DNA of 64,000 bases from Semisulcospira habei (taxonomy: Eukaryota; Mollusca; Gastropoda; Semisulcospiridae). The translations under genes were made by a program, and so were the position numbers. Of this stretch, positions 2,905 through 19,776 are shown piece by piece. Positions within the stretch are counted from its first letter, which is position 1; every line of letters begins with the position of its first letter. The notes beneath the pieces were generated by a model, which made no database searches, had not been told where the DNA came from, and worked only from the letters and a program-made list of their open reading frames with translations. The DNA is taken from positions 19,299,103-19,363,102 of the forward strand of contig BTPG01000004.1 of assembly GCA_036245525.1 (NCBI GenBank). Reading direction: 5' to 3'.

Positions 2905-2910
2905 AACACC
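2905..2910. repeat. Left 6-bp target site duplication of the Polinton
   Basis: AACACC immediately precedes the left TIR and is repeated immediately after the right TIR (19771-19776). Six-bp duplications are the family norm for Polintons/Mavericks. Confidence 0.93.
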
Positions 2911-3147
2911 AGAGAGAGAACAATAGAGTCCCGATAGACAATGAATTCAATAGAGCCGCATCAGTCATTAATTTACATCATTTTTTAATATCATATTTTT
3001 GGCCCCAATTTTACCCCCGTTAATTCTGAATCAACCCTTTGATTTTTAAAAACTGACAAGCATGACTGATGCGGCTCTATTGATCTGATTATCTATCGGG
3101 ACTCTATTGTTCTCTCTCTATAACTATTGTCTCTGTCAATACCTAAT
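2911..3147 (+). repeat. Left terminal inverted repeat of the Polinton (237 bp)
   Basis: It is the reverse complement of 19534-19770: identical over 2911-3139, one mismatch at 3140, then seven more matching bases. Positions 2911-2970 and about 3061-3118 inside the repeat are themselves inverted copies, so the TIR folds into a long hairpin with a loop of about 90 bp. Confidence 0.93.
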
Positions 3148-3264
3148 CATTTACCTGATCAAGTGATGCCAAGTGAAACTTAATACTTATTAACAAGTTG
3201 CAACTAACTTTTAGGAACCTGCAGAGGTAACCTTTAAGTGTGTTGTCATAAGAACTTATTAATT

Positions 3265-3333
3265 ACTTACCCTAAGTTCTTACAAGTACTTACCCTAAGT
3301 TCTTACAAGTACTTACCCCAAGTTCTTACAACA
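3265..3333. repeat. Three 23-bp direct repeats next to the left TIR
   Basis: The unit begins ACTTACCCTAAGTTCTTACA and starts at 3265, 3288 and 3311, the third copy with a C for T change. It lies between the left TIR and the first gene and has no counterpart at the right end. Function unknown; a regulatory or replication role is only a guess. Confidence 0.8.
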
Positions 3334-3404
3334 ACTTGACTCAAGTCCCAAGACACTGAGACAGTTTTACCAAGATACAAGGACAATAAAAAAACTTTTT
3401 TTTC

Positions 3405-3497
3405 TCAGTAGTACTCTGGAGGTGGTGCAGATGGGACTAAATAATCAGGCACAAGTGGTGTAAGTGGCATGGCATTTTTCTGTGAAGTGTATGACAT
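3405..3497 (-). CDS. 30-aa micro-protein with overlapping PSAP and PPxY late-domain motifs
   Basis: ATG at 3497, TGA at 3405-3407. The peptide is Pro-rich and ends ...LVPSAPPPEYY, so a PSAP motif (the P(T/S)AP type known to bind Tsg101/ESCRT-I) runs into a PPEY motif (the PPxY type known to bind Nedd4-family WW domains). These are the classical short budding or trafficking motifs of viral structural proteins. The start lies 26 bp from the stop of the next gene on the same strand, the same spacing as between the other genes of this block (27 and 21 bp). It is too short for statistical ORF calling, so reality rests on the motif pair, the spacing and the position. Conservation in related elements would settle it. 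Confidence 0.6.
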   Translation of the reverse strand: MSYTSQKNAMPLTPLVPDYLVPSAPPPEYY

Positions 3498-3523
3498 TAA
3501 TAAACGATTACCAAATCTGATTT

Positions 3524-4210
3524 TTATTTGTTTAAAAGATTGTGTAGTTTTTCTGTGGTTTCCTGTACCCCTATCTTTTTTCCCTCTGCTAAAAAACTAG
3601 CCTTCAGTTCTTCAACATTTACGGGAGATTGACTACGCATCTTATTCTGTATTTCAGATTTTTGTTTCTTGTAATTATTTAAATCATCCTGGACTCTCTT
3701 AAATTCTTCGTCATCAATAAAATTATCGTTTAATGCCTTACTGATAATAAGTTTCATACTGCTCAGCTTTGCACCAGCCAGCGTACTCAATGCTTCATGT
3801 TTCTGTAATTTTGTGTGAAACCTCTTGTTCAAGGCCTCCAAACCAAAACAAGCCAGGCATGTAGCAACGCTAACAGCCTCAACTGCTATTCCAGCCAAAC
3901 TCCCAATTCCTGTGGCGAACAGAACGATACCCCCTACAGAACATGAAGCTGAAACTGCACCAATAGCCATAGAAGTGTTTTGAACAGAATTAAATACTGA
4001 CTTATACCTCCTTTTGCACCGTGAGTACTTAGCCTCCTCACTCTCCAAATATTTCAAAGCTTCTGTAATATTTATTAATCTGAATGCATCTGTCTGTAAT
4101 GTTTTATCTGAAGCAATTGGCATATGTGGATCAGGCGCAAGTGTTGTTTTAGTCGTCACATTTGTTTCAGTCGGATCAAGCGTTGGTAGTTGCGGATAGA
4201 AGTTTACCAT
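3524..4210 (-). CDS. Polinton-associated protein with central hydrophobic segment (228 aa)
   Basis: Starts at ATG 4210 in the A-rich context shared by the element's genes. Residues 1-60 are Thr/Pro-rich and polar. Residues about 80-125 form a long Gly/Ala/Ser-rich hydrophobic stretch broken by Cys, long enough for two membrane passes or a membrane-inserting hairpin. Residues 130-228 are helical and charged (KLQKHEALSTLAGAKL; DDEEFKRVQDDLNNYKKQK). From memory the combination of hydrophobic centre and KHE-type helical tail recurs in Polintons of cnidarians and molluscs, but I know no assigned function. It is the second gene of the leftward block, 27 bp from its upstream neighbour. A virion or membrane role is inference. 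Confidence 0.88.
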   Translation of the reverse strand: MVNFYPQLPTLDPTETNVTTKTTLAPDPHMPIASDKTLQTDAFRLINITEALKYLESEEAKYSRCKRRYKSVFNSVQNTSMAIGAVSASCSVGGIVLFATGIGSLAGIAVEAVSVATCLACFGLEALNKRFHTKLQKHEALSTLAGAKLSSMKLIISKALNDNFIDDEEFKRVQDDLNNYKKQKSEIQNKMRSQSPVNVEELKASFLAEGKKIGVQETTEKLHNLLNK

Positions 4211-4237
4211 TTTTTTATTGACAAATATTTTTTTTAT

Positions 4238-5113
4238 TTAATCAGCAATTACATTTTGCAACTCTTCAAAAGTATACAATTTGCTGGCATAATAAAATGC
4301 AACAAGATCAATGTGTTCAAGGTTTATGTAAGTTAGACGAACAAAAGTTGTTTTGTCGACCACCACCTTGACAGCTGGAACACTGCTCGAAACATTAATA
4401 ACATCATTATTTTTTGTAATAGCAATAAAGACCTTTGATGATTCTGTTACTGTTTCATCCCATGTAAGTTTAATTCCTTGTGCAATTTGAGCCTCTTTAG
4501 CAGTAGCAACAGATTTCATGATAATTTCAAATACTATTGTCACTTCTCTAGCCATGACTAAGCTTGCTGGCATAAACACAACAGAAGTATCTGATCTACC
4601 CTTTCTAGCTGTAAGAAGATACCGCCGTTTCTCATAATTTTCAACTTTCAGTTTTTCTCTACTATTGTTGTCTGGGGCAAAGCTTGGAACAAGACTTACA
4701 ATAAGCGGCCCCGAGTTAACAACCTTCCTAAACACTAAGGCGCCTTCATCATCAGTGTATACATAAGGACTAATAAATTCCAACTTTATGTCCCAGTCAA
4801 TTGTTGGAGGTGGTGCAGGCACAGGTGAAACAACCCACTTACTACCCACATGTATTAAGTTGTAAGGCGCATTATTTACGGGTGGAGTAGGTACAGTAAC
4901 ATCACGTAGCTGACCAAGTTTAGGAATCTGTTTTTCACCGTCTTTCATGTCAACAATTACTTTCCTCTTGTACATGCCAAAGGAATCAAGTTCAAAACCA
5001 TATATTTCTCCAATTTCTCCCTCCTTCTCAAAATCCTGGACGTCTGCCAAATCTTTCAATTCTGTTACTGGACATGCAACTGGTATGATTCTCGACTTTG
5101 GACCACCACTCAT
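4238..5113 (-). CDS. Polinton gene of unknown function (291 aa)
   Basis: ATG at 5113 (MSGGPKSRI), stop at 4238. The protein is soluble-looking, mostly beta-type in composition in its second half, with a Pro-rich linker (PVPAPPPTIDWD) at about residues 98-109. It has no signal peptide or membrane segment and only one Cys, which makes an adenain-type cysteine protease unlikely. It follows the penton-like gene by 21 bp and precedes the hydrophobic 228-aa gene by 27 bp, so co-expression as part of a structural-gene block is likely. Fibre, spike or minor capsid roles are possible but nothing in the sequence proves one. Confidence 0.85.
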   Translation of the reverse strand: MSGGPKSRIIPVACPVTELKDLADVQDFEKEGEIGEIYGFELDSFGMYKRKVIVDMKDGEKQIPKLGQLRDVTVPTPPVNNAPYNLIHVGSKWVVSPVPAPPPTIDWDIKLEFISPYVYTDDEGALVFRKVVNSGPLIVSLVPSFAPDNNSREKLKVENYEKRRYLLTARKGRSDTSVVFMPASLVMAREVTIVFEIIMKSVATAKEAQIAQGIKLTWDETVTESSKVFIAITKNNDVINVSSSVPAVKVVVDKTTFVRLTYINLEHIDLVAFYYASKLYTFEELQNVIAD

Positions 5114-5134
5114 TTTTTATAAACAAAAATAAAA

Positions 5135-5830
5135 TTATTTAATTTCCAACACAACACTAAAATCATGCATAAGAACTGGTTTGTCATCCTGATTAGTTAC
5201 AGATATACTCAGTGACTCAAAGAAACTAGAACCTAATTTCTTATACTGTGCAGGAAATCTAGCAACCACACTTTCACAATAGGGTGCAGTTCCAGTCGGC
5301 ACACATCTCAACAAAGTCGAAGGCTTTCCATTGTGTACATTCTCAGTTGTGTTCAGTTCTTTCAAATAAACATTTAGTACTGTATGTACTGACAAATGAA
5401 CAGGATATTTTCCAGTCAATTTTCCATCAATCATCTCTATTTTCCAAAGCTTTGTTTTAGCTTCAGTTTCATTTATTAATCCAAGTAATAATAGAAGATC
5501 ATCTGAAAATGTTATCCTACGCTCAGAAGAAAATTCTAATGTAACAAGTAAGTTAGCTGGATTTAAAGTTGCTTTAATTTTTATTTTACTTTGAAACCAG
5601 TTAGCTAATGTACAAAAGTCATAATACCCAGATGTTATTTTATGGTTCTCAATAGGAGAGGATTCATTACTAACAGATACATAATAATTTATATCATCTG
5701 TTACATTAAACCATTTTACACTATAAAACATTTCATGGATAGCTACAGTCTTGCTACCATCACGATTATCAATCCCATTAGTTAACCACACTGGTTTGCT
5801 TGTGTCAAGATTTGTTAATGTGATAAACAT
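5135..5830 (-). CDS. Putative minor capsid (penton-like, single jelly-roll) protein, 231 aa
   Basis: ATG at 5830, stop at 5135. The protein is dominated by short alternating beta strands and ends SLSISVTNQDDKPVLMHDFSV and a few residues more, which matches the pattern I know from the C terminus of Polinton and virophage penton proteins (a strand, a D..G/D..P turn, and a final hydrophobic strand). Length (about 230 aa) is close to that expected of a single jelly-roll penton. It starts 23 bp from the divergently transcribed gene at 5854, so the two share a very short promoter region. The family call is made by pattern, not by alignment; a structure prediction would decide. Confidence 0.7.
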   Translation of the reverse strand: MFITLTNLDTSKPVWLTNGIDNRDGSKTVAIHEMFYSVKWFNVTDDINYYVSVSNESSPIENHKITSGYYDFCTLANWFQSKIKIKATLNPANLLVTLEFSSERRITFSDDLLLLLGLINETEAKTKLWKIEMIDGKLTGKYPVHLSVHTVLNVYLKELNTTENVHNGKPSTLLRCVPTGTAPYCESVVARFPAQYKKLGSSFFESLSISVTNQDDKPVLMHDFSVVLEIK

Positions 5831-5853
5831 TTTTATTATCTCATATAAAAAGG
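5831..5853. promoter_or_regulatory. Divergent 23-bp intergenic region with shared A/T-rich start signals
   Basis: Only 23 bp separate the start codons of the penton-like gene (minus) and the 418-aa gene (plus). The minus start has TTATTTTTA-type sequence reading as AATAAAAATG on its own strand, the motif seen before most starts of the element; the plus start has ATAAAAAGGATG. Confidence 0.55.
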
Positions 5854-7110
5854 ATGGAATTTAAATCACCAACAAGCGTTACTACAAACGCATTTCAATT
5901 TAATGTGAATGCCAAATACAATGCCGCACCTACTTATGAACAGAAAATAATTCAACTAAACCAGCTTGATATAGCTGTAAGCGAACAAGATTTATTTCAA
6001 GTGAAAGTACCAAATCCATTTGACCAATATCTAAACCCTCCAATAACAGATGATGCTACTGCAAGAAAGTGGTCTTCAAGCCCACTACAGATGTTTCAAA
6101 ACCAACTCAACTTTGCAATACTATGTTCAACTACAGGCTGTGGTGTTTCATTTACAGACCACTTGAATCACTCAAACAAACTGATTAGATCTGTGTATCG
6201 TTTCCATGTTTATTACCAGCTTAGACGTATACTGTCAGAACTTCATACACCACTGCCCACTGAATCCAGTTTCAACAGGTTTAACAACCCCATGGATATG
6301 AAAGCGTTTGAACGCATCTGTAATGAATTTAACATCAGTCCCCGGTATGACTTCACACAAAAACTTGATGATCACAAAGGCATGGGTACATTGTATTATG
6401 CTATGAGTCACAGACAATACCCTCAAGATTACTACCCTGGTTACACTTCATTCTCATCAAAATCACAAGTCTGGATAGGATCAATAGAGCAGAAGCAGTC
6501 AAACGCATGGACCACATTTATTTTAGATAAATCTGACGGGTTTACTCAAGCAGGAGTTGAGCGCGTAAATGAGTCTATCAGAACATATGTCTGGTGTATA
6601 CTAGGAGCACAATCACTAACAAAATCAAACATTTTGAATGGAAGTGGTAAATTTGAAGCACAAAAACAGTTTCTTGCAAATCTTGAAGATTCAATTAACT
6701 CAACAGTTGATCTCCCATCTAGCATACAGCGCTACCAAAACGTACTCAGATATGCCAGATCGAAAGTTGACTTTGTAGTTGGCACGGGGTTATACATGTT
6801 ACCATCTGATCTTCAACTCCAAATGGGTACAATAACAAATTATAATAATGAAATCATTGTTGCAGGTGTTGGCCAGAAATTAGGACTCAATCAATCTGTA
6901 AACTTGGGTGCCACAACCACACATGTACAGCCGTTAAAATCATTACAGACGGTAACACCTCCAGCCCCGGCCCCGGCCCCAGCCCCATCACCGGCACCCA
7001 TACAACCAGTACAGTCAACACCAACCCCTGACACACATGAGTCAGAACGAACTGCATTAGTAATTGGATTAACAGGACTAGGAGTATTACTTCTTTATCT
7101 GTTTCATTAA
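5854..7110 (+). CDS. Large probable virion protein with Pro-Ala linker and C-terminal membrane anchor (418 aa)
   Basis: ATG at 5854, TAA ends at 7110. Residues 1-360 are soluble and include conserved-looking blocks such as ARKWSSSPLQMFQNQLNFA, the STTGCGVSFTDHLNHSN segment, and FNRFNNPMDMKAFERICNEF. A Pro-Ala repeat (PAPAPAPAPSPAP) near residues 368-380 forms a flexible linker, and residues about 402-418 form a single hydrophobic helix at the very C terminus, a tail-anchor arrangement. From memory a homologous large protein accompanies this type of Polinton in cnidarians, also without assigned function. Its 3' end overlaps the opposing gene by 24 bp. A virion surface or assembly role is inference from size and company. 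Confidence 0.88.
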   Translation: MEFKSPTSVTTNAFQFNVNAKYNAAPTYEQKIIQLNQLDIAVSEQDLFQVKVPNPFDQYLNPPITDDATARKWSSSPLQMFQNQLNFAILCSTTGCGVSFTDHLNHSNKLIRSVYRFHVYYQLRRILSELHTPLPTESSFNRFNNPMDMKAFERICNEFNISPRYDFTQKLDDHKGMGTLYYAMSHRQYPQDYYPGYTSFSSKSQVWIGSIEQKQSNAWTTFILDKSDGFTQAGVERVNESIRTYVWCILGAQSLTKSNILNGSGKFEAQKQFLANLEDSINSTVDLPSSIQRYQNVLRYARSKVDFVVGTGLYMLPSDLQLQMGTITNYNNEIIVAGVGQKLGLNQSVNLGATTTHVQPLKSLQTVTPPAPAPAPAPSPAPIQPVQSTPTPDTHESERTALVIGLTGLGVLLLYLFH

Positions 7111-8337
7111 ATAACCCACCATCAACCCTCCTACTGTAACCAAAAAGACCCACACATGTTCTGCCATAAACCCAACTACCTTTGCCGCTGTACTAATCAA
7201 CCAACTGACAACAGAGCCTATAATGCCAGGCAACGCGTCCACTGCTTTCAGAGCCAATTTTTTTAGCAAGTCTGATATGTGAGACAGTTGTTTTTTTACC
7301 CATGACTGTAAATCTTTTGGATCTGTGGGAGCCGGTGGGCCCGGTGCTGGGGCCGGGGCTGCACCCCCACCACTGCCAGAGACAGCCAACACAACAGTAC
7401 TTATAATAAACCCAAGAGCTGTAATTAAACTAGCAATTGTGATACCCTGTTCTCTGAAAAGTGTTTTAAGTCTCTCAGCCAGAGTAGTGTCTTCGTGAAG
7501 TATTTTCTGAATAGTTTCTCTAATTCTGTTGACCTGTGATTTCAGTTTTTGTCTTCCAATACTAATCACTTCTAACCGTCCTGATCTTTCTATCTGCAAA
7601 TCATTTAATCTGTGCTGTATTCTCTCTTTCATTTCTGTGTCAAGATTTCCATTGTCTGCTGTAGCCAGTTTCTCTTTTTCACGTTCTATGTGTTTATCAA
7701 GCTCACCTAGTTTGGCAACATTGTTTACCATCTCACCTCTTATCGTCTGCAGTGATTTATCCAATCCCATAATCTCCCTCATTGACAAAGGTGGATCGTC
7801 TATTGTTTTCATAGCATCATTTAATTGACCTTCAGTAAATGAAGTTTCTTGTATCACTGTGTTTGCTATTTCTGGTAGGCTTGTTACTGGTGCCATTTCA
7901 ATCTCTTGCCCTGTTGGCAACTTTGTTTGCGTGTCGTGAAGAACACTAGCCAGTCTAGGCGCAAGCGGCGTGACAGGAGACCCACCAATACCAAGTTGAC
8001 GCAAGGCACCAATACCACCTTCATTTTTTATTGTACTTAAAGCCCTAAACCTACTAGGGTCTTTTTTGTTAGTCAATAGTACTTTTCCTTTGTCAACAGT
8101 GTTTAAATATAAATGACCCTTGCCATCAAGTTCAAACTGATTAGGGTCTACGTTGTCTGGGCGTCCACCAACATGATCATAAAATGAGTTCACTTTGGTT
8201 TCTAAAAGTTCGTGACGTAAACTGTAAATATTTCTTGTACCAGTCATATCTACCATATCTGTCATATCTGTTGTATTACCAAAATCATACGTGTCATCCA
8301 TTTCAAAATCTTCATGATTAAATCCTCCTGCTGCCAT
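7087..8337 (-). CDS. Coiled-coil protein with Pro-Ala linker and amphipathic/hydrophobic C-terminal region (416 aa)
   Basis: ATG at 8337, stop at 7087. Residues 1-60 are acidic (DMTDMVDMT repeats). Residues about 170-290 are predicted coiled coil (LGELDKHIEREKEKL, RQKLKSQVNRIRETI). Residues 297-319 are hydrophobic (GITIASLITALGFIISTVV), followed by a Gly/Ala/Pro linker (320-340). Residues 345-410 are helical and amphipathic to hydrophobic (LLKKLALKAVDALPGIIGSVV, then two membrane-length stretches). This layout suggests a protein that oligomerises and inserts in or disrupts membranes. Similar proteins recur next to this capsid type in other invertebrate Polintons (from memory). It is transcribed away from the capsid gene, whose ATG is 40 bp away. 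Confidence 0.87.
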   Translation of the reverse strand: MAAGGFNHEDFEMDDTYDFGNTTDMTDMVDMTGTRNIYSLRHELLETKVNSFYDHVGGRPDNVDPNQFELDGKGHLYLNTVDKGKVLLTNKKDPSRFRALSTIKNEGGIGALRQLGIGGSPVTPLAPRLASVLHDTQTKLPTGQEIEMAPVTSLPEIANTVIQETSFTEGQLNDAMKTIDDPPLSMREIMGLDKSLQTIRGEMVNNVAKLGELDKHIEREKEKLATADNGNLDTEMKERIQHRLNDLQIERSGRLEVISIGRQKLKSQVNRIRETIQKILHEDTTLAERLKTLFREQGITIASLITALGFIISTVVLAVSGSGGGAAPAPAPGPPAPTDPKDLQSWVKKQLSHISDLLKKLALKAVDALPGIIGSVVSWLISTAAKVVGFMAEHVWVFLVTVGGLMVGYLMKQIKK

Positions 8338-8377
8338 TGTTTTATTAATTTATTATTTTTTATTGTGCATAATAAAA

Positions 8378-9664
8378 ATGACACAGTCTTACGGATCAAA
8401 GTTAGACCCATACAGAAAACTACGTGAGCCCCTGGGTGTTAAGGGCATAAGACAATCAATCGTCATCACGAACAATCCAAGTACCATAGACCAGAACCAA
8501 ACACTTACAGTCAAGTTTCCAAACCTAGGCCCCAGTGACGTTATTGTTCCTGGCACTGCACGCCTAGCATTTAATATTGAACTATCATCAGACGCAGATG
8601 TAAACAGAACACTGGTTGACAATCTTGGCAGAGCAATTGTTAGAACTATTAAAGTAAAACTTGAAGGACAGGAAGTGTTTAGTCTTGACGACGCAGATGT
8701 GTTCTACTGTTACAAAGATCTTTGGCTCACAAGAGAAGAACGAGAAGACCGTATTTACCAAGGCATACAGTCAGATAATGTTGGTAAACTTCGAATCAAT
8801 GCCGGAGACAAAACAACTACTGGGGTACCAAAGGAAGTTATTATAGCAGAAACATATGGAACCAGATTTTACATTCCACTTGAGTTTGAAATCCTAACAG
8901 CACATTTGCCTTATTATCAAGGGGCACTGAATGACCGTCTGAGCTTTGAACTAACTTTCAATGACTACTCCAAAGTTATAAAATCATCTGCCACAGATGC
9001 AACATACAAGATCTCTAACATTTCCTTGGAATATGAAATTGTCACACATATTGAACTAGCCAGACTCATACAAAATCAGTACCAGTCAAGACTTCCAATT
9101 TATTATGACCGTGTGATTAGGCATAGTTTAATACCCAAAGACAAAAGCGACCCAATGTGGAACATAAACTTGAACACGCCTGCCAGGTCACTGAAAGGTA
9201 TTCTTATGTTGTTTGTTGAACCGGTGAGTCCATACAAAAGAGATTCAGAAAAATTCTACAATCCTAAGATTACACATTTGTCCTGCACTATTGAAGGCCG
9301 CCCTAATCAAGTGTACGCTTCAGGAATGTTACCTTATCAACACTATGACGAAACCACAAAGTATTTTGCGGGTGGAAGGATTAGAGATAAACCTGCAAAC
9401 ATTGCGTGCAAAGATCTACATCTGTATGATGTTAGGATTGGACAATACCTGACAAACAAGTATGCACTGTGGCTAGATCTTCGTAGTACAGATGACGATT
9501 ACCTTCATGGGTCAGGACGAACTGTCGAGAATGGTAGTGATGGGATTACAATTCAGATACAAAAGAAGGTTGAAACTGCTGCAGCCATAAACATATATTT
9601 GTACCTGATATATGACGCACAACTCAATATACAAGACAGTAGACTAAGTGGACACATATATTAA
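8378..9664 (+). CDS. MCP: Polinton major capsid protein, double jelly-roll type (428 aa)
   Basis: The start is set at ATG 8378 (MTQSYGSKLDPYRKL), in the shared AATAAAAATG context, rather than at an upstream TTG. The sequence shows two successive beta-rich halves: the first with FPNLGPSDVIVPGTARLAFN, the second from about residue 215 with the block SLKGILMLFVEP. It resembles the capsid family that is annotated in many invertebrate genomes after the C. elegans protein F54H12.2. The family forms hexon-like trimers of an icosahedral particle. It is followed 19 bp later by the packaging ATPase, and lies opposite the penton-like gene in the element, matching the usual morphogenesis module. Confidence 0.9.
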   Translation: MTQSYGSKLDPYRKLREPLGVKGIRQSIVITNNPSTIDQNQTLTVKFPNLGPSDVIVPGTARLAFNIELSSDADVNRTLVDNLGRAIVRTIKVKLEGQEVFSLDDADVFYCYKDLWLTREEREDRIYQGIQSDNVGKLRINAGDKTTTGVPKEVIIAETYGTRFYIPLEFEILTAHLPYYQGALNDRLSFELTFNDYSKVIKSSATDATYKISNISLEYEIVTHIELARLIQNQYQSRLPIYYDRVIRHSLIPKDKSDPMWNINLNTPARSLKGILMLFVEPVSPYKRDSEKFYNPKITHLSCTIEGRPNQVYASGMLPYQHYDETTKYFAGGRIRDKPANIACKDLHLYDVRIGQYLTNKYALWLDLRSTDDDYLHGSGRTVENGSDGITIQIQKKVETAAAINIYLYLIYDAQLNIQDSRLSGHIY

Positions 9665-9683
9665 AATTATATTGTGTATTAAA

Positions 9684-10295
9684 ATGAACCGGGGCTTAAT
9701 GACACTCGACCCCCACTGTGGATTGTTTTGTGGTGCCACAGGGTGTGGTAAAACTGAATTTGTACTTAACCTCTTACAAACAAGATACATACACCACTTT
9801 GAAAACATTGTAATATTTTGTCCTACAATCAAACACAACAAAGCTTATCACAACCGTTTATTCATTTGGACTGACAGCAACATATACTTAGTCGACCCTG
9901 AGAAAAAACTGAATGACTACCTACAATATTTTTACAAGCAATTTGAAGGACAGCCAACATTGTTTATTGTTGATGACTGCTCCGCAGAGAAAGACATTGT
10001 CAAGAAGAGAAACACTTTGGCAGAACTTGCCTTCAGTGGCAGACACGCAAATGTTAGTGTATGGATTCTCACTCAGAAATATAATGCTGTACTGAAAGAT
10101 TTTCGAGAACAGTTAAAGTTTATCTGTTTGTTTTACTGTAAGGATCGTGACAGCTTCGAAGACTGTCTCAGAGAGAATGATGTCATACCAAATAAGCATG
10201 AACGTGATGATGTAAAAAATAAACTGAAATCAACTAAGCATCTAAAGCTCATTTTAAAGACAGATCAGCCCACAGGGTATGGGTTAGTAAATTAA
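9684..10295 (+). CDS. A32-like (FtsK/HerA superfamily) DNA-packaging ATPase, 203 aa
   Basis: The true start is ATG 9684 (MNRGLMTLDPHCG, preceded by TTAAA), not the upstream GTG that would overlap the capsid gene. Walker A is GATGCGKT at residues 17-24; Walker B is TLFIVDD ending at residues 97-98; ILTQKY at about 129-134 fits the glutamine-containing motif that follows Walker B in this family. The family pumps the viral genome into preformed capsids using ATP. Length is in the range of virophage and Polinton packaging ATPases. The position directly behind the major capsid gene supports the role. Confidence 0.93.
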   Translation: MNRGLMTLDPHCGLFCGATGCGKTEFVLNLLQTRYIHHFENIVIFCPTIKHNKAYHNRLFIWTDSNIYLVDPEKKLNDYLQYFYKQFEGQPTLFIVDDCSAEKDIVKKRNTLAELAFSGRHANVSVWILTQKYNAVLKDFREQLKFICLFYCKDRDSFEDCLRENDVIPNKHERDDVKNKLKSTKHLKLILKTDQPTGYGLVN

Positions 10296-10323
10296 TTTTT
10301 GTTTTTTAAAAATAACAATATAA

Positions 10324-10851
10324 ATGAACCCTGATGAAATCCTTCTATTGAATGATATCAATGCTGTAGAGAACAAAGACTTAGACTCTAAGAAACAGCG
10401 GCTTTTGTCTGTGATTGTCTCAGGCAAATCAAAGGCTTATCTAGGAAGACAATACATGACAGAGGATATTGAATCTCTTACGGCTGACGAACTAATCAAG
10501 CTTCATTCAAAATATGAGAACCACATTGCCTCACTAATGACACGTGATTTGAGTCGATCTCTTGTATGCCTATACACAAAAGCAGTGAGTCACTTTCTAC
10601 CTGTGGATAGTGACAGTTTATCACACGACCTTGAAAGCAATCCTATTGTTTCAAGTTCAATTGGCAAATTAGCATGTGTCATGTTTTACAAGTTTGGAAA
10701 TTACCTTGCACCTGTCGTAACCCTTCTTGTTACTGGGAGCCATATTGATTTCTCAAAAATAAATTTTACTGCAGAAGAAAATGGACGAAACCCAGATGAC
10801 TCCACAACCGAACCCCGACCCTGTTTTGACACAGGTTCAAACTGTGACTAA
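10324..10851 (+). CDS. Conserved Polinton protein of unknown function (175 aa)
   Basis: ATG at 10324 in the context AATATAAATG, 28 bp after the ATPase stop. The segment YLGRQYMTEDIESLTADELI is followed by HSKYE and a helical region, and about 40 residues near 120-145 are moderately hydrophobic (FYKFGNYLAPVVTLLVTG). From memory this pattern (a hydrophobic LAP motif and a D-E-L helix) recurs in small proteins of cnidarian Polintons. The tail (residues 150-175) is low in complexity because it overlaps the next gene, whose ATG at 10781 lies inside it by 71 bp in another frame. Confidence 0.85.
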   Translation: MNPDEILLLNDINAVENKDLDSKKQRLLSVIVSGKSKAYLGRQYMTEDIESLTADELIKLHSKYENHIASLMTRDLSRSLVCLYTKAVSHFLPVDSDSLSHDLESNPIVSSSIGKLACVMFYKFGNYLAPVVTLLVTGSHIDFSKINFTAEENGRNPDDSTTEPRPCFDTGSNCD

Positions 10852-11254
10852 GGTTAAAAGTCCGGGGAGGGTTGAGGCTGGAAAGAGAGTAGCTGCATTG
10901 AACAAACAAAGAAAGTTAGAACTACTGCAAAAGGTACATGTAACTGACCCACAGTCAATAACATCATTGGTGACACTACCGTCAGGACAGCCAGGTCCGT
11001 CACACCCTCATCAAAGTGAGAGACAAACAACTAAGTCTGACCCTCGCCCTGACCCTGACCCCGAACCTCAATCAACAAAATATATAATTGCCGGATTTGT
11101 TGTCGGATTTGGTTACGTAGGTTATCAATTATACAAAAAATACAAACCACAGACTCGTACAGTGACCAAAAAATCAGACACTCCAAAAACAAAACCAGAA
11201 GTCGCCACATTACCAGTAACATCCAAAGCCGTTGACCCATTTTATATGCAGTAA
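10781..11254 (+). CDS. Small Polinton membrane protein with KxPGRVxAGKR motif (157 aa)
   Basis: ATG at 10781 (MDETQMTPQPNPDP), overlapping the previous gene by 71 bp. Residues 26-44 read KSPGRVEAGKRVAALNKQR, a basic motif that I associate with a recurrent small Polinton protein family. A Pro/Asp-rich spacer (residues 70-98, with PDPDPEP) is followed by one membrane segment at 101-117 (YIIAGFVVGFGYVGYQL) and a basic tail. A basic N terminus with one anchor could tie DNA or capsid to membrane, but that is inference. AATAAA directly follows the stop (TAAATAAAAA at 11252). Confidence 0.83.
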   Translation: MDETQMTPQPNPDPVLTQVQTVTKVKSPGRVEAGKRVAALNKQRKLELLQKVHVTDPQSITSLVTLPSGQPGPSHPHQSERQTTKSDPRPDPDPEPQSTKYIIAGFVVGFGYVGYQLYKKYKPQTRTVTKKSDTPKTKPEVATLPVTSKAVDPFYMQ

Positions 11255-11290
11255 ATAAAAATATTATTTTAATTTTTCTTGCCTTAGAAA

Positions 11291-11521
11291 ATGAATGACT
11301 CAAAGAACATGATGAACCTTGTGTATCACTCTGCCGTAATCAGTGGATTAGCAGTAGCTTATTCTATGCTGGGGAAAAGTCTACTCAAAATGAAATCAGC
11401 AGACTTGAGTAGACTTGATTTCGAAGACAGTGCTAAGCTAATTGTAGTTGTCACAGCGTCGATTGCGACAAAAGATTTTCTTGTCAAGCAGGGAATTATT
11501 CCAGAAAATGTTTCTATGTAA
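11291..11521 (+). CDS. Small conserved Polinton membrane protein (76 aa)
   Basis: ATG at 11291, stop at 11521. The pattern is compact: an N-terminal hydrophobic helix (AVISGLAVAYSMLGKSLLKM, residues 15-34), an acidic link (ADLSRLDFEDSAKL) and a second hydrophobic helix ending KDFLVKQGIIPENV. Very similar small proteins, with a VAYxMLGK-type helix and a QGIIPE ending, recur in cnidarian Polintons as I remember them. The family has no known function; a two-helix membrane or capsid-cement role is possible. The stop is followed by TAAATAAAATAAATATG, so the 3' end and the next start are only 11 bp apart. Confidence 0.85.
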   Translation: MNDSKNMMNLVYHSAVISGLAVAYSMLGKSLLKMKSADLSRLDFEDSAKLIVVVTASIATKDFLVKQGIIPENVSM

Positions 11522-11532
11522 ATAAAATAAAT

Positions 11533-11967
11533 ATGGCGACGATAGCTATTATGATTGGGGGAGCGATGGTTAACGCATTGGCTTTCAGTGGCTCAAACTA
11601 TCTCTTTTCAAAAATGGGTAGAGAAGAATCAGCAGAGGAAATGAAACGTCACAATGAGGCAACAGAAAAACTTGCTCAAGCCCAGCAGGAATATGAAAAG
11701 AATAGAATTGAGAAACTTGATTTCATCAATGAAAAACTCAGACTTGAAGGCCACGCACAACATACGTTTTCAAATACAGACGAAGCAATCAGGGAATATT
11801 TTCTTGTCACAGGTGAAGACATGTCTATCCCAAAACCGAAACTAAGTGACTATTACAAACCAAGCACACAACAAAGAAACGGGGAGATAATCTTTGTTCT
11901 AGTGGGAATGACATTTGTTTATTTTACAGGAGTTTTCATTGCTAGAAAAAATGGCAGCCGAAAATAA
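11533..11967 (+). CDS. Conserved Polinton protein with hydrophobic ends and coiled-coil middle (144 aa)
   Basis: ATG at 11533. Residues 1-26 are hydrophobic (IMIGGAMVNALAFSGSNYLF), residues 32-72 form a charged coiled coil (EEMKRHNEATEKLAQAQQEY), residues 85-112 contain REYFLVTGEDMS and LSDYYKPS, and residues 118-137 form a C-terminal membrane helix. The NALAFxGSNYLFS start and the LSDFY/YxPS block are, from memory, hallmarks of a family that recurs beside the small 76-aa gene in other Polintons. It overlaps the integrase start by 17 bp. Function unknown; both ends in a membrane is the simplest reading. Confidence 0.86.
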   Translation: MATIAIMIGGAMVNALAFSGSNYLFSKMGREESAEEMKRHNEATEKLAQAQQEYEKNRIEKLDFINEKLRLEGHAQHTFSNTDEAIREYFLVTGEDMSIPKPKLSDYYKPSTQQRNGEIIFVLVGMTFVYFTGVFIARKNGSRK

Positions 11968-12925
11968 ACTATCAAAAATATATTACTCTCCATCAGGCTA
12001 TTGGAAAGGAGCAACAGCTATTCAGAAATTACATGCCGCTGTGGGCGGTGATATAACACTCAATCAAGTCAAACAATGGTTACAGAGACAAGCAATTTGG
12101 CAGATATATCTCCCTGCTCCAAGAAAGATAACAAGACCCCATTTTGAAAACACTACCCCCAATGACACACACCAAATGGACCTCCTGTTCTTACCCCATG
12201 ACACAATAAGAAAGAAACGATACAAATATGCATTAACTGTTGTAGACATTGCTTCAAGGTACAAAGATGCTGAACCCATATCTGACAAAACAGCCAGTAC
12301 AGTTGCTACAGCATTAACAAAAATATATGGTCGAGGCCCTTTAAGATACCCCAGACTAGTGCAGGTTGATGATGGATCAGAATTCAAAGGTGCTGTTAAT
12401 CAGTTATTTGCTAAGCATGGTGTACTGGTCAGACGAGGCATTCCAGGTGTGCACAGATCACAGGCAATTGTAGAGAACTTTAACAAACAGTTGTCAGAGA
12501 GACTTTTCAGTTACCAGTATTCTAAGGAACTCATGCATGACACCCGGAACACTGAGTGGGTTAAGAGATTACCACATGTGATAAAAGCAATGAACGATGA
12601 AGGACATCCTAAGCCTGCTGATGCTATTAAATTGAAATCAATTACAGAGCCAAAAACAATGTCAACCCAGGCACCGCTTGCACCAGACACAAGCTTGTTT
12701 ACTAAACAGGTGAGATATTTATATCAACCCGGAGAGGCCGAGAACGACGTAAAGCGCAGGGCAACAGACCCTATCTGGTCAACGTCTGTACACAATATAA
12801 AAAAAATAATTCCCGGTCCAGACGCAACAATATATTATCTGTATGACCCTGCACCCCAGAGGGCATTTGTCAGAGAAGAATTACAGATTATTCCCCCAGA
12901 CACCGTTACTCATTTCAGTAACTAA
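11951..12925 (+). CDS. INT: Retroviral-type (rve) DDE integrase of the Polinton (324 aa)
   Basis: The start is ATG 11951 (MAAENKLSKIYYSPSGYWKG), in the context GAAAAAATG; the upstream TTG in the same frame is not needed. The rve core is present with catalytic D77 (THQMDLLF), D140 (LVQVDDGSEF) and E175 (SQAIVENFNK), a D,D-34-E spacing. The C-terminal part (residues 240-310) is beta-rich and basic, like the SH3/chromo-type DNA-binding tails of these integrases. The enzyme joins the linear element ends to host DNA and makes the 6-bp staggered cut that gives the observed duplication. Its 3' end overlaps that of the polymerase gene by 45 bp. All three catalytic residues are intact. Confidence 0.95.
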   Translation: MAAENKLSKIYYSPSGYWKGATAIQKLHAAVGGDITLNQVKQWLQRQAIWQIYLPAPRKITRPHFENTTPNDTHQMDLLFLPHDTIRKKRYKYALTVVDIASRYKDAEPISDKTASTVATALTKIYGRGPLRYPRLVQVDDGSEFKGAVNQLFAKHGVLVRRGIPGVHRSQAIVENFNKQLSERLFSYQYSKELMHDTRNTEWVKRLPHVIKAMNDEGHPKPADAIKLKSITEPKTMSTQAPLAPDTSLFTKQVRYLYQPGEAENDVKRRATDPIWSTSVHNIKKIIPGPDATIYYLYDPAPQRAFVREELQIIPPDTVTHFSN

Positions 12926-15900
12926 GTCGTCAATTAATTCATCAACCAGTTCATCACAAATGTCTTCAGATAACTTGAGCCTGTAATGACCTGGTGCATA
13001 AGCTTTTTCCTTAGTGTGAAAAACACGTTTCGTGTCTCCAACTGCAAGTGACTTCTTATGTGTTTGGATCATTTCAAGATTATGTTTGTTTGATCTCAGT
13101 GACTTGTTTGGATAATCAGGCATCAATGCACCATCTAACACTTGCTTGTAATGTTCATGACGTATGTCTTTATTTTTTATTGCTGTTTTTTTAATTCCTT
13201 TGGCTTTCGACTGACTACCCTTCTGGTGCAGTATAGAATACATTTTTGATCTCAGTCCAACATACTCAACTATTGGCACACCATTTAGTTCATCCTTAAA
13301 CTTACCAGGCACTTTTTTGTTTTGTGTGCTAAACAGTGGATGATCCTTAGGGTAGTCAGATGTGTCATACATGTGTAACTCTGTTTTCATGTCTTCGTAA
13401 AAGTCTTCAGTACACACATCAATGATCATAGAGTCAGTGTCAGTGTATAGCAGACGGCAGTCAGGATACTTTGGTTTGAAGTAATCATAATAAAATTCAA
13501 GCATCAACAGTTTTGACAACTCAAGAATTGCCATACCAATGAATACTGGCTTGTCCAGTTTGACAATCTTTTTTTTGAGTGACACAGCATACAATGATGA
13601 ATGAAACTCTTTGTACCCTGTGTACTGTGGCTTACCTGTAAGTTTAATTGCGCCCAATTCAGTTGTGACCAGTCTCACATCTTTTCTGTGATGAGGATTT
13701 TCCATAGTCTTGCCAAAACAGGCATTGTTCATAAGCTTAAAGAAGTCTTTGTCAAATGCAGTGTTGCCGTCTCTGGCACGGAGGGTTGTGTTCTTCATTA
13801 TGTAATCTTTCATGAAAGCACTCTGATCAAATTGAATGCCTCTGTGAACTTTCTTTAGTACTAACCCATGTCTGATGTAAAACTGTAACAAGCGGTAGTG
13901 ACAAACGTAATTGAATTTGTCATTTAGATTTGGCACAAGTTTAGTGTCTTCTTTTTTCCCTGTCATACTCATTTTCTCAACAGCTAATGGATAATCATTA
14001 TGGTAATCGTGTAGGTGGTGTGGGTACTCCAGGTCGACTTCAAAGATCCAACCCTTCGCGTCGTTTCGGTCAAGATTCATAATATTGTTAGTTAACCCTG
14101 ACTCTGTTACATCATACTGTGACAAATCATGCAGACAAAAGTTTTTCAAGGGCAATAATTCACACATTGCCCAGCCATACAAATTATTAGCGTCAAGGTA
14201 CGTAATGAATGACCTTGACCCTGGGCTTGAGGGGTCAAAGGTGTCCAGATATTTATTGTTGGCTCTGGCATAGTTGTTCGCTGCAATACTAATCCCACCC
14301 CTCAATCCACGTTCCACCATTTCACCCATCGTACGATCAGACAACAGGTCTATAGATATCTTACTGGATTTCAAAAATGCATCCCACGTCATGCCAGGAC
14401 TAGTTATGTAACAGGCAGGGTCAAGCTTGTAGTGTAACAACCCCTTTTCACGGTAACTTTCAAATACGTCTGCTAGCAAACAAACGTCAGCTTTTAAGTA
14501 CTGATCATGATAGTCACCAATTGTTTGACACCCCAACTTCCCCCACGCATCAAGTGCGTGTTGATATTCAGAGTCAGAAATACCTTTTCCAGTTAGTGTA
14601 GAATAAAATTTCTCTTTTGGTGGCAGTCTTGTTTCTTCAAACACAACCCAGTGATCAATGTACTCATACGGATAGACTCCTTTCTTGATCAAGTCTGGTT
14701 CAAAATATTTACTTGTTATTGGATACTCAGTCAGTCCTTCTGCCAGACTAGCCAACCCTAAAGACAAATGTTGCATGGAGTCATAAAATGCTAATTTATC
14801 TAATCTAAAAGTCAAGTATTTCTCAGTTGTCTGGGCAATGCAACTTATGTTTTTGTACGACTCATCTACAGCCTGCATGATAATGTGTGAATCGTACCCT
14901 TTGAGATTGTGGAAAAAGATTGGCAGTTTGTATGTCTTGGGATCTGTTTTTAATAATAAGTTACAATTGTTATGAGCAGCTCCTCTGTAACGCCCAGTTA
15001 TGTGATCGTGGTCACGAACTTTATCACATCCTAAAGGCTGTTCACAAATCCAACACGTCTCAGCTGTATCAAATTTCAGTTTGTCTTCTTCTGTCATCAC
15101 CAAAGGCATCTGACATGTTGTGAGATACTGTACTACCTGACTATACAGATGTCTCATTTCTGTTAAAAACAGACATGCTGCATTTTCACCCCTGTAGATA
15201 ACAGGCTCTGAATGAAGACCGTCTGACCTAACAATAATGTATCCAAAAGAACACACCACTTGGTCACTCAGTTTTATAGTCTTTGGTAATGACTCTGGAA
15301 CAGGACCGTCATACGGAACTACTAATGATTCAAAATCTGCGTACACTACAAACGACAGCTTTTGCTGATTCCCATAGTTCTTAAAATACACTTGACTACC
15401 AGGCTCTGGATACTTAAGTACAGTTTGAATGTCATCAGCTGACCTGCAGTGTAAAACATGTTTGTGTGCCACAGCAATAGAGGAAAACCTCTGTAAACAT
15501 CTATTACAAAATTCCTGTTTGCCCTTGTGTTTTGTTGTATGATTATGAATTAGACGTGACATATTCCTAATAATTGTGTAGTGAAAGTTATTGTCATCTC
15601 CGATTAGCAACATGTCAACATGCTTATTTTCTGACTGACCATAGGTTGGTGCCAGTGCTGATACTCTAATGGGTTGTAACTTGTCAACAGACACATTATC
15701 CCACACAAACACATTTACAGATATGCCAGGATTTAATTTTTCAAACAAGTCTATGTCCTCTATTTTAACAGGGAACTCAATGCCACTAAAATCGAGTTCC
15801 TTTACAAATTTGGTGTAGTTAGAAACACGTTCAGGTTTTATTTTTACAAAGTGTAGTTTAGCAAGCACACACCACATGAAACAATAGTTGTCATTGTTCT

Positions 15901-16357
15901 GAATGTTGACGACAGCCTTTTTGTTTACTACTTCTGTTGGCAGTGGCAACCATGCTTTACCTAATATAGGATGATACCTAGACTGCTTTAGTTGTAGTTC
16001 ATGTACATGACCTTCGTGCCAGCCAGACCCCTTCATTCTTGCACTGTCAATTGCTTGTAGAAAGTCTGGTAATAGTCTGTCTCTGAACACGTTCTCCACC
16101 TCCGGTTCTCTTCTTGTGTTAACAGTGTGTTGTCTTGTTGATATGTACGAAACAATCACCTCACCGTCGACCCTAGTGAATTCGATTTTTGCAACAATCT
16201 GAATCTTTACACTGCCTGTAAGAAGATTTTGTTGTATGACAGAAAAAGAGTTTTCTATTGATTCATAGACATTATTAGTATTGGATATGGGTAAGTTTGT
16301 TGTGTGAAACACGTTTCTTAAACCAGATGAGCCAGGGCTTTGAGCATTGTCCGTCAT
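12881..16357 (-). CDS. POLB: Protein-primed family B DNA polymerase (1158 aa)
   Basis: ATG at 16357 in the context TAAAAATG, TAA at 12881. Residues 284-304 carry a C-x2-C...H-x3/4-C zinc-finger-like motif. Exonuclease motifs are YADFES (D341, E343), FFHNLKGYD (484-489) and YLKADV (D624). Between Exo I and II, residues 435-465 hold C-x2-C...DHDH...HNNC, resembling an HNH/endonuclease VII-type site. Polymerase motif A is LDANNLYGWA (D722), motif B KLMNNACFGKTMEN (877-886) and motif C YTDTDS (D973, D975). The N-terminal 280 residues are unassigned and could hold the terminal-protein region. Proofreading and polymerase residues all look intact. The enzyme would copy the linear element from its TIRs. 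Confidence 0.95.
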   Translation of the reverse strand: MTDNAQSPGSSGLRNVFHTTNLPISNTNNVYESIENSFSVIQQNLLTGSVKIQIVAKIEFTRVDGEVIVSYISTRQHTVNTRREPEVENVFRDRLLPDFLQAIDSARMKGSGWHEGHVHELQLKQSRYHPILGKAWLPLPTEVVNKKAVVNIQNNDNYCFMWCVLAKLHFVKIKPERVSNYTKFVKELDFSGIEFPVKIEDIDLFEKLNPGISVNVFVWDNVSVDKLQPIRVSALAPTYGQSENKHVDMLLIGDDNNFHYTIIRNMSRLIHNHTTKHKGKQEFCNRCLQRFSSIAVAHKHVLHCRSADDIQTVLKYPEPGSQVYFKNYGNQQKLSFVVYADFESLVVPYDGPVPESLPKTIKLSDQVVCSFGYIIVRSDGLHSEPVIYRGENAACLFLTEMRHLYSQVVQYLTTCQMPLVMTEEDKLKFDTAETCWICEQPLGCDKVRDHDHITGRYRGAAHNNCNLLLKTDPKTYKLPIFFHNLKGYDSHIIMQAVDESYKNISCIAQTTEKYLTFRLDKLAFYDSMQHLSLGLASLAEGLTEYPITSKYFEPDLIKKGVYPYEYIDHWVVFEETRLPPKEKFYSTLTGKGISDSEYQHALDAWGKLGCQTIGDYHDQYLKADVCLLADVFESYREKGLLHYKLDPACYITSPGMTWDAFLKSSKISIDLLSDRTMGEMVERGLRGGISIAANNYARANNKYLDTFDPSSPGSRSFITYLDANNLYGWAMCELLPLKNFCLHDLSQYDVTESGLTNNIMNLDRNDAKGWIFEVDLEYPHHLHDYHNDYPLAVEKMSMTGKKEDTKLVPNLNDKFNYVCHYRLLQFYIRHGLVLKKVHRGIQFDQSAFMKDYIMKNTTLRARDGNTAFDKDFFKLMNNACFGKTMENPHHRKDVRLVTTELGAIKLTGKPQYTGYKEFHSSLYAVSLKKKIVKLDKPVFIGMAILELSKLLMLEFYYDYFKPKYPDCRLLYTDTDSMIIDVCTEDFYEDMKTELHMYDTSDYPKDHPLFSTQNKKVPGKFKDELNGVPIVEYVGLRSKMYSILHQKGSQSKAKGIKKTAIKNKDIRHEHYKQVLDGALMPDYPNKSLRSNKHNLEMIQTHKKSLAVGDTKRVFHTKEKAYAPGHYRLKLSEDICDELVDELIDDLVTEMSNGVWGNNL

Positions 16358-16448
16358 TTTTATTTGTCCGACAAAATAATAAAATAAAAAAAATTACTGC
16401 TGTCACACCATATGTAATACTGTATTATCTGTAGTTATGATAAACAAG

Positions 16449-16817
16449 TCAACTACTATTCTGGTGTTTGTCCTGCAGGTGCAAAATTACTTTATTGAAC
16501 GTAACACTTTCAATATAACAATGTAGTTTTCTTATTTGATTAAATATGTCTTCACACAGTACCTCAAACCAACGCAAGTGGCCACTGTTAGCATTATAAA
16601 CTTTAAAAGCATTTGTCTTAAGATCAACAGTCTCATAATCATAACCTGGTAATCCATCTGAATATTCCAGAGTAACATTATATGTCGTGTATATCCTTAT
16701 TGACGGTGTTGAGAGTTTAAAGCTGGGTCCAAACACACGTGTTTTTAAGTCAGTAAAGTGCATAACATCTTTGAAGCATTCTGTAACATCAAACACTTGG
16801 GTTTGTCTGTCTGTCAT
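16449..16817 (-). CDS. Small Polinton gene of unknown function (122 aa)
   Basis: I place the start at ATG 16817 (MTDRQTQVFDV), because it has the same start context (TAAAAATGAC) as the polymerase gene and its first residues echo those of the polymerase (MTDNAQ). The frame stays open upstream to a second ATG at 16910, which would give 153 aa. The protein is beta-rich (TPSIRIYTTYNVTLEYSDGL), with two Cys and no membrane segment. It lies 91 bp upstream of the polymerase gene on the same strand and could be transcribed with it. No family recognised. Confidence 0.75.
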   Translation of the reverse strand: MTDRQTQVFDVTECFKDVMHFTDLKTRVFGPSFKLSTPSIRIYTTYNVTLEYSDGLPGYDYETVDLKTNAFKVYNANSGHLRWFEVLCEDIFNQIRKLHCYIESVTFNKVILHLQDKHQNSS

Positions 16818-16910
16818 TTTTATTAGACAAACAAAAGAATAATTGTTATCAAGCAAAATCATGTTTTCTAGGAAATTACACTGAATAGTAATTTTATACG
16901 TTTGCACCAA

Positions 16911-17222
16911 TCAGCTATGTTGTCAGTAACGTTTTACATTTACACTGTGTTACTGCTTCTATGTAAGCTAAATGGATTTAGATTCAAACCACAGACACAC
17001 TCACTCAGGTATAAAACTCTATGCATTTCCTAGTCAATGACATAAGGGGCATAAACACTTGAAAGATTTAACCACTGTACAGAGTTGTCTCCCATAGACT
17101 ATATGTTGCATACCCAAGTTGGTAGACAACTGCGTCACTGATTTGTGAGTGAGTATTCATTGAGGATATCCTGTTTATGTGTAGCAAGGATAATGATTTC
17201 AGGTATGTTCATTTTGTAGTCT
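16911..17222. other. Gene-free region inside the Polinton
   Basis: No gene is seen between the 122-aa gene and the first TG tract. Confidence 0.6.
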
Positions 17223-17243
17223 TAGCTCAGTGACATGTCTATT

Positions 17244-17244
<1 letters not shown>

Positions 17245-17301
<57 letters not shown>
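17245..17301. repeat. (TG)n microsatellite
   Basis: Nearly pure TG dinucleotide run inside the Polinton. Confidence 0.95.
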
Positions 17302-17303
<2 letters not shown>

Positions 17304-18076
17304 ATTGGATTATGCAGAGATTCAGAAATCTTTACAGTTGACTCAAACCCAATAAAAAAACAGTGGCTCTTGAGAATCTCGCCATGCTCATAAGAATCTG
17401 TGATCGAGTGGGCTACTGAAAATGTACAATAAAACATGTGTTATTTATGTTCTCATAGAAGGGATTTAGTAGAGCAGACGACTCATAGCGTCACTCAGTT
17501 ATACAAAAGACACTGTGAACCGAACCCTAAAATAACTGAACTGAGTGTTGAGCTGTGTATTGATGTACACTGGCGTGTAGGTGTTTTATGTAAACATGTT
17601 CTGTGTGCGTGTGTGTACATATGTGTGTGTGTGTGCGTGTGTGTCAGTGCGTGTGTCAGTGCGTGTGTGTGTTTGTGTTTGTGTTTGTGTGTGTGTGTGT
17701 GTGTGTCATTGGATTATGCAGAGATTCAGAAATCTTTACAGTTGACTCAAACCCGATTAAAAACAGTGGCTCTTGAGAATCTCGCCATGCTCATAAGAAT
17801 CTGTGATCGAGTGGGCTACTGAAAATGTACAATAAAACATGTGTTATTTATGTTCTCATAGAAGGGATTTAGTAGAGCAGACGACTCATAGCGTCACTCA
17901 GTTATACAAAAGACACTGTGAACCGAACCCTAAAATAACTGAACTGAGTGTTGAGCTGTGTATTGATGTACACTGGCGTGTAGGTGTTTTATGTAAACAT
18001 GTTCTGTGTGCGTGTGTGTACATATGTGTGTGTGTGTGCGTGTGTGTCAGTGCGTGTGTCAGTGCGTGTGTGTGTT

Positions 18077-18108
<32 letters not shown>
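17301..18108. repeat. Two tandem copies of a ~404-bp unit with TG-rich ends
   Basis: GTCATTGGATTATGCAGAGA occurs at 17301 and again at 17705, and the following 270 bp and the TG-rich tail match almost base for base (one indel of about 2 bp). Both copies end in (TG)n-type sequence, and the whole array sits between TG runs, as expected from unequal exchange or slippage between microsatellites. Open frames here are by-products of the repeat. Confidence 0.93.

Positions 18109-18173
<65 letters not shown>
18109..18173. repeat. (GA)n microsatellite following (TG)n
   Basis: About 64 bp of pure GA directly after a TG run at 18084-18111. Confidence 0.95.
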
Positions 18174-18175
<2 letters not shown>

Positions 18176-19533: not shown

Positions 19534-19770
19534 ATTAGGTGTTGACAGAGACAATAGTTATAGAGAGAGAACAATAGAGTCCCGATAGATAATCAGATCA
19601 ATAGAGCCGCATCAGTCATGCTTGTCAGTTTTTAAAAATCAAAGGGTTGATTCAGAATTAACGGGGGTAAAATTGGGGCCAAAAATATGATATTAAAAAA
19701 TGATGTAAATTAATGACTGATGCGGCTCTATTGAATTCATTGTCTATCGGGACTCTATTGTTCTCTCTCT
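19534..19770 (-). repeat. Right terminal inverted repeat of the Polinton (237 bp)
   Basis: Reverse complement of 2911-3147 with one mismatch. Like the left TIR it contains an internal inverted pair (19563-19620 against 19711-19770). Confidence 0.93.
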
Positions 19771-19776
19771 AACACC
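19771..19776. repeat. Right 6-bp target site duplication (AACACC)
   Basis: Direct repeat of 2905-2910. Confidence 0.93.

Follow-up and report, generated by a model that had tools for sequence, protein, structure and literature searches.

Introduction

The heptamer U UUU UUA is of the HIV-1 gag-pol type, and −1 frameshifting is usually, though not universally, accompanied by a stimulatory RNA structure downstream of the slippery site. The late motifs described as classical number three, P(S/T)AP, PPxY and YPxnL, in the account of one source (PMC6874086). For adintoviruses, a preprint (PMC11071296) presents Penton ORFs with cysteine-rich tails and a −1 frameshift predicted by KnotInFrame, and it defines a class of membrane-active capsid core proteins named 'Macc'. 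As put in one account of Maverick/Polinton elements, their particles have yet to be observed (PMC8097293). Our literature search, which covered sources other than the main adintovirus paper, returned no report of a Polinton with PPxY or other late motifs in a product of programmed ribosomal frameshifting.

Here we analyse a Polinton contained in a 64-kb window (the whole stretch of DNA under analysis), in which a virus-related mobile element appears to hide budding signals of the enveloped-virus type in the second frame of a membrane-protein gene. As with the late domains of enveloped viruses, all three motif types would occur in one product of a 228-aa gene, two of them adjoining at its extreme C-terminus and under selection, and the 228-aa protein has a hydrophobic core of the membrane type. 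In contrast to a retroviral Gag or the matrix protein of an RNA virus, however, the carrier is a Polinton protein; the −1 frame holds two of the three motifs, and the binding is putative. The arrangement shares with the HIV-1 gag-pol type of frameshift a canonical heptamer in the 0 frame, an open −1 overlap, a position near the 3′ end of the gene and an alternative C-terminus; it differs in that a search for a conserved stimulatory hairpin or pseudoknot came up empty, and in that the extension contributes motifs for protein binding instead of an enzyme. Unlike the adintovirus Penton case, as presented in the preprint, it concerns another protein and comes with evolutionary evidence and late motifs. 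With adenovirus protein VI and 'Macc' proteins the 228-aa protein has in common that it is encoded by an adenovirus-related element, has a long hydrophobic stretch and is associated with a NEDD4-type PPxY, whereas it gives no sequence match to them in Pfam, its family also has P(S/T)AP and YPxL, its PPxY is seen only in the shifted frame, and its location in a capsid is putative.

Results and Discussion

The element and its copies

The insertion spans positions 2911-19770 of the window. Its terminal inverted repeats (left, 2911..3147; right, 19534..19770; 237 nt each) are 100% complementary, and each adjoins a copy of a 6-bp target-site duplication, AACACC, on the left at 2905..2910 (read directly from the sequence) and on the right at 19771-19776. 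Because it encodes a retrovirus-type integrase (11951..12925, plus strand; rve, E 9.6e-11) and an A32-type packaging ATPase (9684..10295, plus strand; Pox_A32, E 9.9e-15, within ORF 9648-10295), both of which are Polinton markers, we take it as a Polinton, and the long inverted termini and the 6-bp duplication of the target site are in keeping with this assignment. ORF 12881-16357 (1158 aa) is polymerase-like and the candidate for a protein-primed B-family DNA polymerase, with a YTDTDS motif visible by eye; it gave no polymerase match in Pfam, NCBIfam, PHROGs or PDB sequences. A candidate double jelly-roll major capsid protein at 8378-9664 was likewise without a match in Pfam (searched with ORF 8363-9664), NCBIfam, PHROGs and PDB sequences.

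Some minor features of the element were recorded alongside. Residues 425-469 of ORF 12881-16357 form an endonuclease VII-like stretch (PHROGs, and Pfam below the cut-off). A smaller inverted repeat of 58 nt (2911-2968 and 3062-3119, 93% complementary) sits inside the terminal repeat, and at 17356-18058 a 403-nt tandem duplication, with two 300-nt stretches that are 100% identical, adjoins microsatellite-like repeats. An ATAAAA-type sequence lies no more than 12 nt from the ATG in 9 of the 14 element ORFs between 3524 and 16817, which looks like a common expression signal very close to the start codon.

Four related queries of the host genome (2.0 Gb) returned 9768, 8556, 9664 and 7221 first-look candidates, with 150 scored per query; for the 228-aa protein, the query with 9768 candidates, all 150 of those scored were matches. 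The host genome contains very many such Polintons, in diverged lineages; vertebrate Mavericks are described as mostly low-copy (PMC8097293).

The reported ORF lies in the −1 frame of a longer gene

The first-pass annotation had described a minus-strand ORF that ends in PSAPPPEYY and lies between the left terminal inverted repeat and the first large gene, with a 26-nt gap, and translation bears this out. The 30-codon ORF (3405..3497, minus strand) translates to MSYTSQKNAMPLTPLVPDYLVPSAPPPEYY followed by a stop; it is placed between the left repeat (2911-3147) and the 228-aa ORF, which ends at 3524, with 26 nt (3498-3523) between the two ORFs. The codons for PSAPPPEYY (3408..3434, minus strand) bring a TSG101-type PSAP and a NEDD4-type PPEY side by side. 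When all six frames of the 64-kb window were searched for P(S/T)AP followed by PxY with zero to four residues between, this ORF was the single match, and P(S/T)AP and PPxY were absent from all 14 longer ORFs of the element that were scanned.

The reading frame of the 30-codon ORF is the −1 frame of the 228-aa gene (3524..4210, minus strand). An in-frame heptamer T TTT TTA (U UUU UUA in RNA; 3590..3596, minus strand) precedes the 0-frame stop by 70 nt, and from it the −1 frame stays open for 61 codons, through the 0-frame stop, to PSAPPPEYY. The 0 and −1 frames are thus both open over 3527..3596 (minus strand), and the −1 extension of 61 residues with its stop takes up 3405..3590 (minus strand), the reported ORF being the part of it downstream of a non-conserved ATG. 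In the window the −1 stretch open upstream of the 0-frame stop is 70 nt long and begins at T TTT TTA, with a −1 stop directly 5′ of the heptamer, and in most loci of a second, diverged lineage it is 85 nt long and includes the same heptamer. Since the −1 frame is open far upstream of the ATG, back to a conserved slippery heptamer, the motifs most likely stand at the C-terminus of a variant of the 228-aa protein made by frameshifting, and the 30-codon ORF is real, yet most likely not a separate gene.

Conservation and selection of the tail

We compared 89 host-genome loci including the window, of which 77 are distinct over 750 nt; the 12 others were dropped, the 750-nt stretch of each being identical to another. 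Leaving out three loci with a moved 0-frame stop (L017, L032, L033) gave the 74 loci used for counts of codons and overlap stops, and leaving out L033 gave the 76 loci (38 pairs, not chosen on the tail) of the codon-position tally. For pN/pS, 24 representatives were taken from 58 loci picked for the heptamer and an intact ending, and 19 of these remain when five with a stop in the core are set aside. Six further loci, which belong to the window's own clade, were fetched later through a query of the host genome with the homolog P0013 (150 places) and stand outside all main tallies. The tail evidence covers one host genome.

The layout of heptamer, open −1 frame and motifs recurs across copies and across two diverged lineages of that genome. 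The first-pass annotation had tied its reading to the motifs being conserved in related elements and to a dN/dS-type signal, and within the host genome both are found. In the −1 reading, both the PSAP-type P(S/T)AP and PPxY are present in 56 of the 77 distinct loci, at least one of them in 65 and neither in 12, and exactly PSAPPP(D/E)YY occurs in 54 of the 76 copies not picked for an intact tail. Five of the six further loci have both motifs; the tail frame is broken in L090. This broken tail and the loss of motifs in 12 of the 77 loci are as expected for decaying copies.

In the 27 nt of the motif, differences fall 5/6/78 at the first, second and third −1 codon positions (38 pairs, 76 loci; chi-square p 2e-26, with pairs that are only roughly independent), compared with 51/54/49 in the 45 nt upstream of the motif and 33/11/38 in the 27 nt past the stop. 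With 78 of 89 differences at third positions, in 76 copies that were not selected for an intact tail, the ORF is more than a chance occurrence. The linker up to PSAP has no position bias (53/46/56). Past the 0-frame stop, pN/pS of the tail is 0.38 in the −1 frame versus 0.80 and 1.07 in the other frames, in a set of 24 representatives that is biased to intact tails because the loci were picked for the heptamer and an intact ending. In the overlap of the same representatives, pN/pS points to constraint on the 0 frame (0.32) but not on the −1 frame (1.07). The pN/pS values and position counts together indicate that the overlap serves the 0-frame protein and is only kept open in the −1 frame, and that the far end of the tail is kept as a peptide.

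That the overlap is kept open is also seen in its stop codons, which among the 74 loci, not picked for an open frame, number 2 in 1702 codons of the −1 frame versus 307 in 1628 of the +1 frame; farther upstream in the 228-aa gene the −1 frame has 319 stops in 3040 codons (19 representatives). When synonymous codons of the 0-frame protein were randomised in seven representatives, 3.6 to 19.5% of trials were free of a −1 stop. Judged from these comparisons, the motif peptide is under strong purifying selection in the −1 frame. At the level of sequence evolution in this one host genome, the data show that the tail is read in the −1 frame, with selection acting at the motif, and that the heptamer and the open overlap are kept, the linker being kept open only.

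Routes into the −1 frame

In 71 of the 77 distinct loci TTTTTTA precedes the stop by exactly 70 nt, and three of the six that lack it are those with a displaced 0-frame stop (L017, L032, L033). It is present in all six further loci, and in one, where the overlap differs by 3 nt, it stands at −73; its identity in 19 of 19 representatives is no evidence, because these were picked for the heptamer. Across the 74 loci with an unmoved stop, the Leu codon is TTA in 74 and the Phe codon TTT in 72, and the codon before them ends in T in 72 (TCT in 52, AGT in 16, AAT in 3, TTT in 1). Each of 11 other mostly-Leu columns in the last 110 codons uses more than one Leu codon (at −75 the second codon is found in one locus only), and two of the three other mostly-Phe columns have TTT in 74 of 74 loci, so that fixation stands out for TTA but not for TTT. 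In this AT-rich element similar in-frame heptamers are not rare, with four in the 228-aa gene and one to four in eight of 13 other genes; T TTT TTA at 3596-3590, which fits the canonical X XXY YYZ pattern when read in the 0 frame, is singled out by its position and conservation. A second heptamer, T TTA AAC (3530..3536, minus strand), adjoins the stop in the window's lineage and is not conserved. We rejected a slip at this site: other lineages have AGC or GGC, and the upstream overlap that is kept open also contradicts it.

We think it probable that −1 frameshifting on the 228-aa gene gives a product whose C-terminal end is this peptide, and that the motifs of the peptide recruit ESCRT. The majority of ribosomes would make the 228-aa protein, in which an N-terminal YPxL is followed by a long hydrophobic core and a C-terminus that is presumably helical. 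Some would instead slip back by one nucleotide on U UUU UUA, after codon 207, and replace the last 21 residues with the 61-residue tail to give a 268-aa form ending in PSAPPPEYY. Frameshifting would in this way set the share of copies that bear the PSAP and PPEY pair. We infer that the shift is ribosomal and that some share of ribosomes slips.

No conserved RNA structure was found downstream of the heptamer in an alignment fold of 23 representatives (consensus energy −0.61 kcal/mol), and nine single folds gave z values of −0.50 to 1.21. A crude pseudoknot scan of eight loci yielded a fair candidate only in the window and in L084 (2 and 3 of 40 shuffles were as good) and nothing in the other six (13 to 40 of 40). 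The absence of a conserved structure is the main weakness of the ribosomal reading, and the best-placed alternative requires none. By this alternative, TTTTTTAG at the heptamer would serve as a 3′ splice site, with the upstream exon coming from the 228-aa gene or from another gene; the sequence resembles a pyrimidine tract with AG, and both the TTA in 74 of 74 loci and the G that follows it in 73 of 74 suit a splice acceptor. A matching donor is harder to find: over the 185 codons scanned, no GT dinucleotide that is conserved in 17 or more of 19 representatives has the phase for −1 entry here. C would be tolerable at two third positions within the T run, yet none of the 74 loci has one. This speaks only weakly against splicing, since TTT is the usual Phe codon here and Ser codons ending in C are scarce at several columns too. 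On balance we consider splicing unlikely.

Six bases is a short run for slippage by Pol II, which counts against a polymerase that would add one base on the T6 run in some transcripts without involving the ribosome. The run is kept in 71 of the 77 loci, one extra U would lead into the same frame, and the lack of a conserved RNA structure would fit. Slippage on T6 does not account for the final A of the heptamer, which is present in 74 of 74 loci though TTA and TTG alternate at other Leu columns, and we regard this route as very improbable. Even less credible is a separate small gene, as in the first-pass annotation, whether its own ATG would be reached by reinitiation or from its own promoter. 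The ATG of the window does start a 30-codon ORF 26 nt past the upstream stop, but a conserved ATG for the tail frame was not found: two of the 58 intact-tail loci are free of Met in this frame, and in the others the first Met falls at nine different places, which argues against an ATG-started gene. This gene would also leave unexplained why the −1 frame runs open into the 228-aa gene for 70-85 nt upstream of the 0-frame stop, back to the conserved heptamer, and its ATG has no ATAAAA-type sequence nearby, unlike those of 9 of the 14 other ORFs. A chance ORF within a decaying repeat, which the many copies, the broken tails in some and the lack of both motifs in 12 of 77 loci might suggest, is refuted by the counts of overlap stops (2/1702 versus 307/1628) and by the third-position bias of motif differences among loci taken irrespective of their tail (5/6/78), and we give it practically no weight.

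The 228-aa protein and its homologs

The ribosomal frameshift being our preferred route, the protein that it would extend deserves description. The 228-aa protein is under purifying selection in the 0 frame. Near its N-terminus it has YPQL (4187..4198, minus strand), a YPx(L/I) motif of the ALIX type, and residues 79-128 (3827..3976, minus strand) form a long hydrophobic stretch (above 1.3 in a Kyte-Doolittle window of 19) that is possibly a membrane hairpin. YPx(L/I/V/M) is kept in 74 of the 77 host-genome loci.

Protein databases yielded 23 homologs, down to about 28% identity, and 22 of these were taken as having an N-terminus. In the first 40 residues, YPx(L/I/V/M) is present in 21 of the 22 versus 0.67 expected by shuffling, and P(S/T)AP occurs near the N-terminus in 8 of the 22 versus 0.04 expected; the 22 are not independent, as five are 149-aa proteins (the two inspected are near-identical) and P0013-P0015 are mutually close. 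Neither the N-terminal YPx(L/I) of the 228-aa protein nor the N-terminal P(S/T)AP of its relatives figured in the first-pass annotation. The TSG101-type motif is thus N-terminal in some relatives and, in the window's lineage, lies in the −1 frame beside the NEDD4-type motif. The N-terminal P(S/T)AP is present and the heptamer-encoded F-L absent in P0005-P0008, whereas F-L is present and the N-terminal P(S/T)AP absent in the window protein and in P0002-P0004, homologs at about 62% identity. As a separate observation, the distant homologs P0013-P0015 and P0018 have YPxL beside PSAP, within two residues, near the N-terminus.

For the 228-aa protein, searches of Pfam, NCBIfam, PHROGs and PDB gave no family beyond weak, chance-like matches. 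Scans of viral contigs (with six queries) and of genome contigs revealed no relatives, and a phage collection held no relatives of P0018. The window protein and 17 relatives were scanned in Pfam without a match to the adenovirus protein VI family; distant kinship of the 228-aa protein to protein VI is possible.

Putative function of the late motifs

The 228-aa family is best read as a membrane protein with late motifs of the ALIX, TSG101 and NEDD4 types, of which the last two would be reached through −1 frameshifting. All three, P(S/T)AP, PPxY and YPx(L/I), are conserved at the residue level. The protein would sit in a membrane by its hydrophobic core, and its ends would recruit ALIX (YPxL), TSG101 (PSAP) and NEDD4-type ligases (PPEY), and hence ESCRT, in the service of particle release or trafficking. 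YPxL is also compatible with a YxxPhi sorting motif. A UEV domain of the TSG101 type is matched twice in the host genome (best E 1.8e-19). The first-pass annotation had proposed a dedicated 30-aa adaptor gene that recruits ESCRT or ubiquitin ligases; the adaptor gene is not sustained, its ATG not being conserved, while PSAP and PPxY are kept by selection and point to ESCRT and NEDD4 recruitment, and this selection on the motifs strengthens the ESCRT part of the proposal.

ESCRT-mediated release appears the simplest function, with trafficking during entry as the chief alternative. Here the motifs would act as does the PPxY of adenovirus protein VI, which recruits Nedd4 ligases during entry of a non-enveloped virus (PMC2841620), and the related adintoviruses are described as having adenovirus-like virion proteins (PMC11071296). 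Three motif classes together, however, are rather a mark of proteins that act in release, retroviral Gag being an example, and an entry role, which would bear on function only, strikes us as rather unlikely. The topology in the membrane, the partners bound and a role in release are likewise inferred. More specifically, and only tentatively, this Polinton membrane-protein family may serve specifically as a release factor that recruits ESCRT and has late motifs of up to three classes; in the window's lineage, −1 frameshifting would dose the TSG101- and NEDD4-type pair, much as retroviruses dose Gag-Pol. These Polintons would then exit cells in or through membranes.

A late-motif protein that is conserved and shows measurable selection on its motifs is evidence that the elements are kept as something that engages the membrane machinery of the cell, in the manner of viruses, and it makes the exit of Polintons from cells, or their movement within them, concretely testable. 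ORF listings may overlook functional C-termini of such elements because these lie in a shifted frame.

Among the other proteins of the element, those encoded at 5854-7110, 7087-8337 and 11533-11967 each end at or near a hydrophobic, tail-anchor-like segment (from the translations, by eye); three such proteins would fit a particle that bears membrane proteins.
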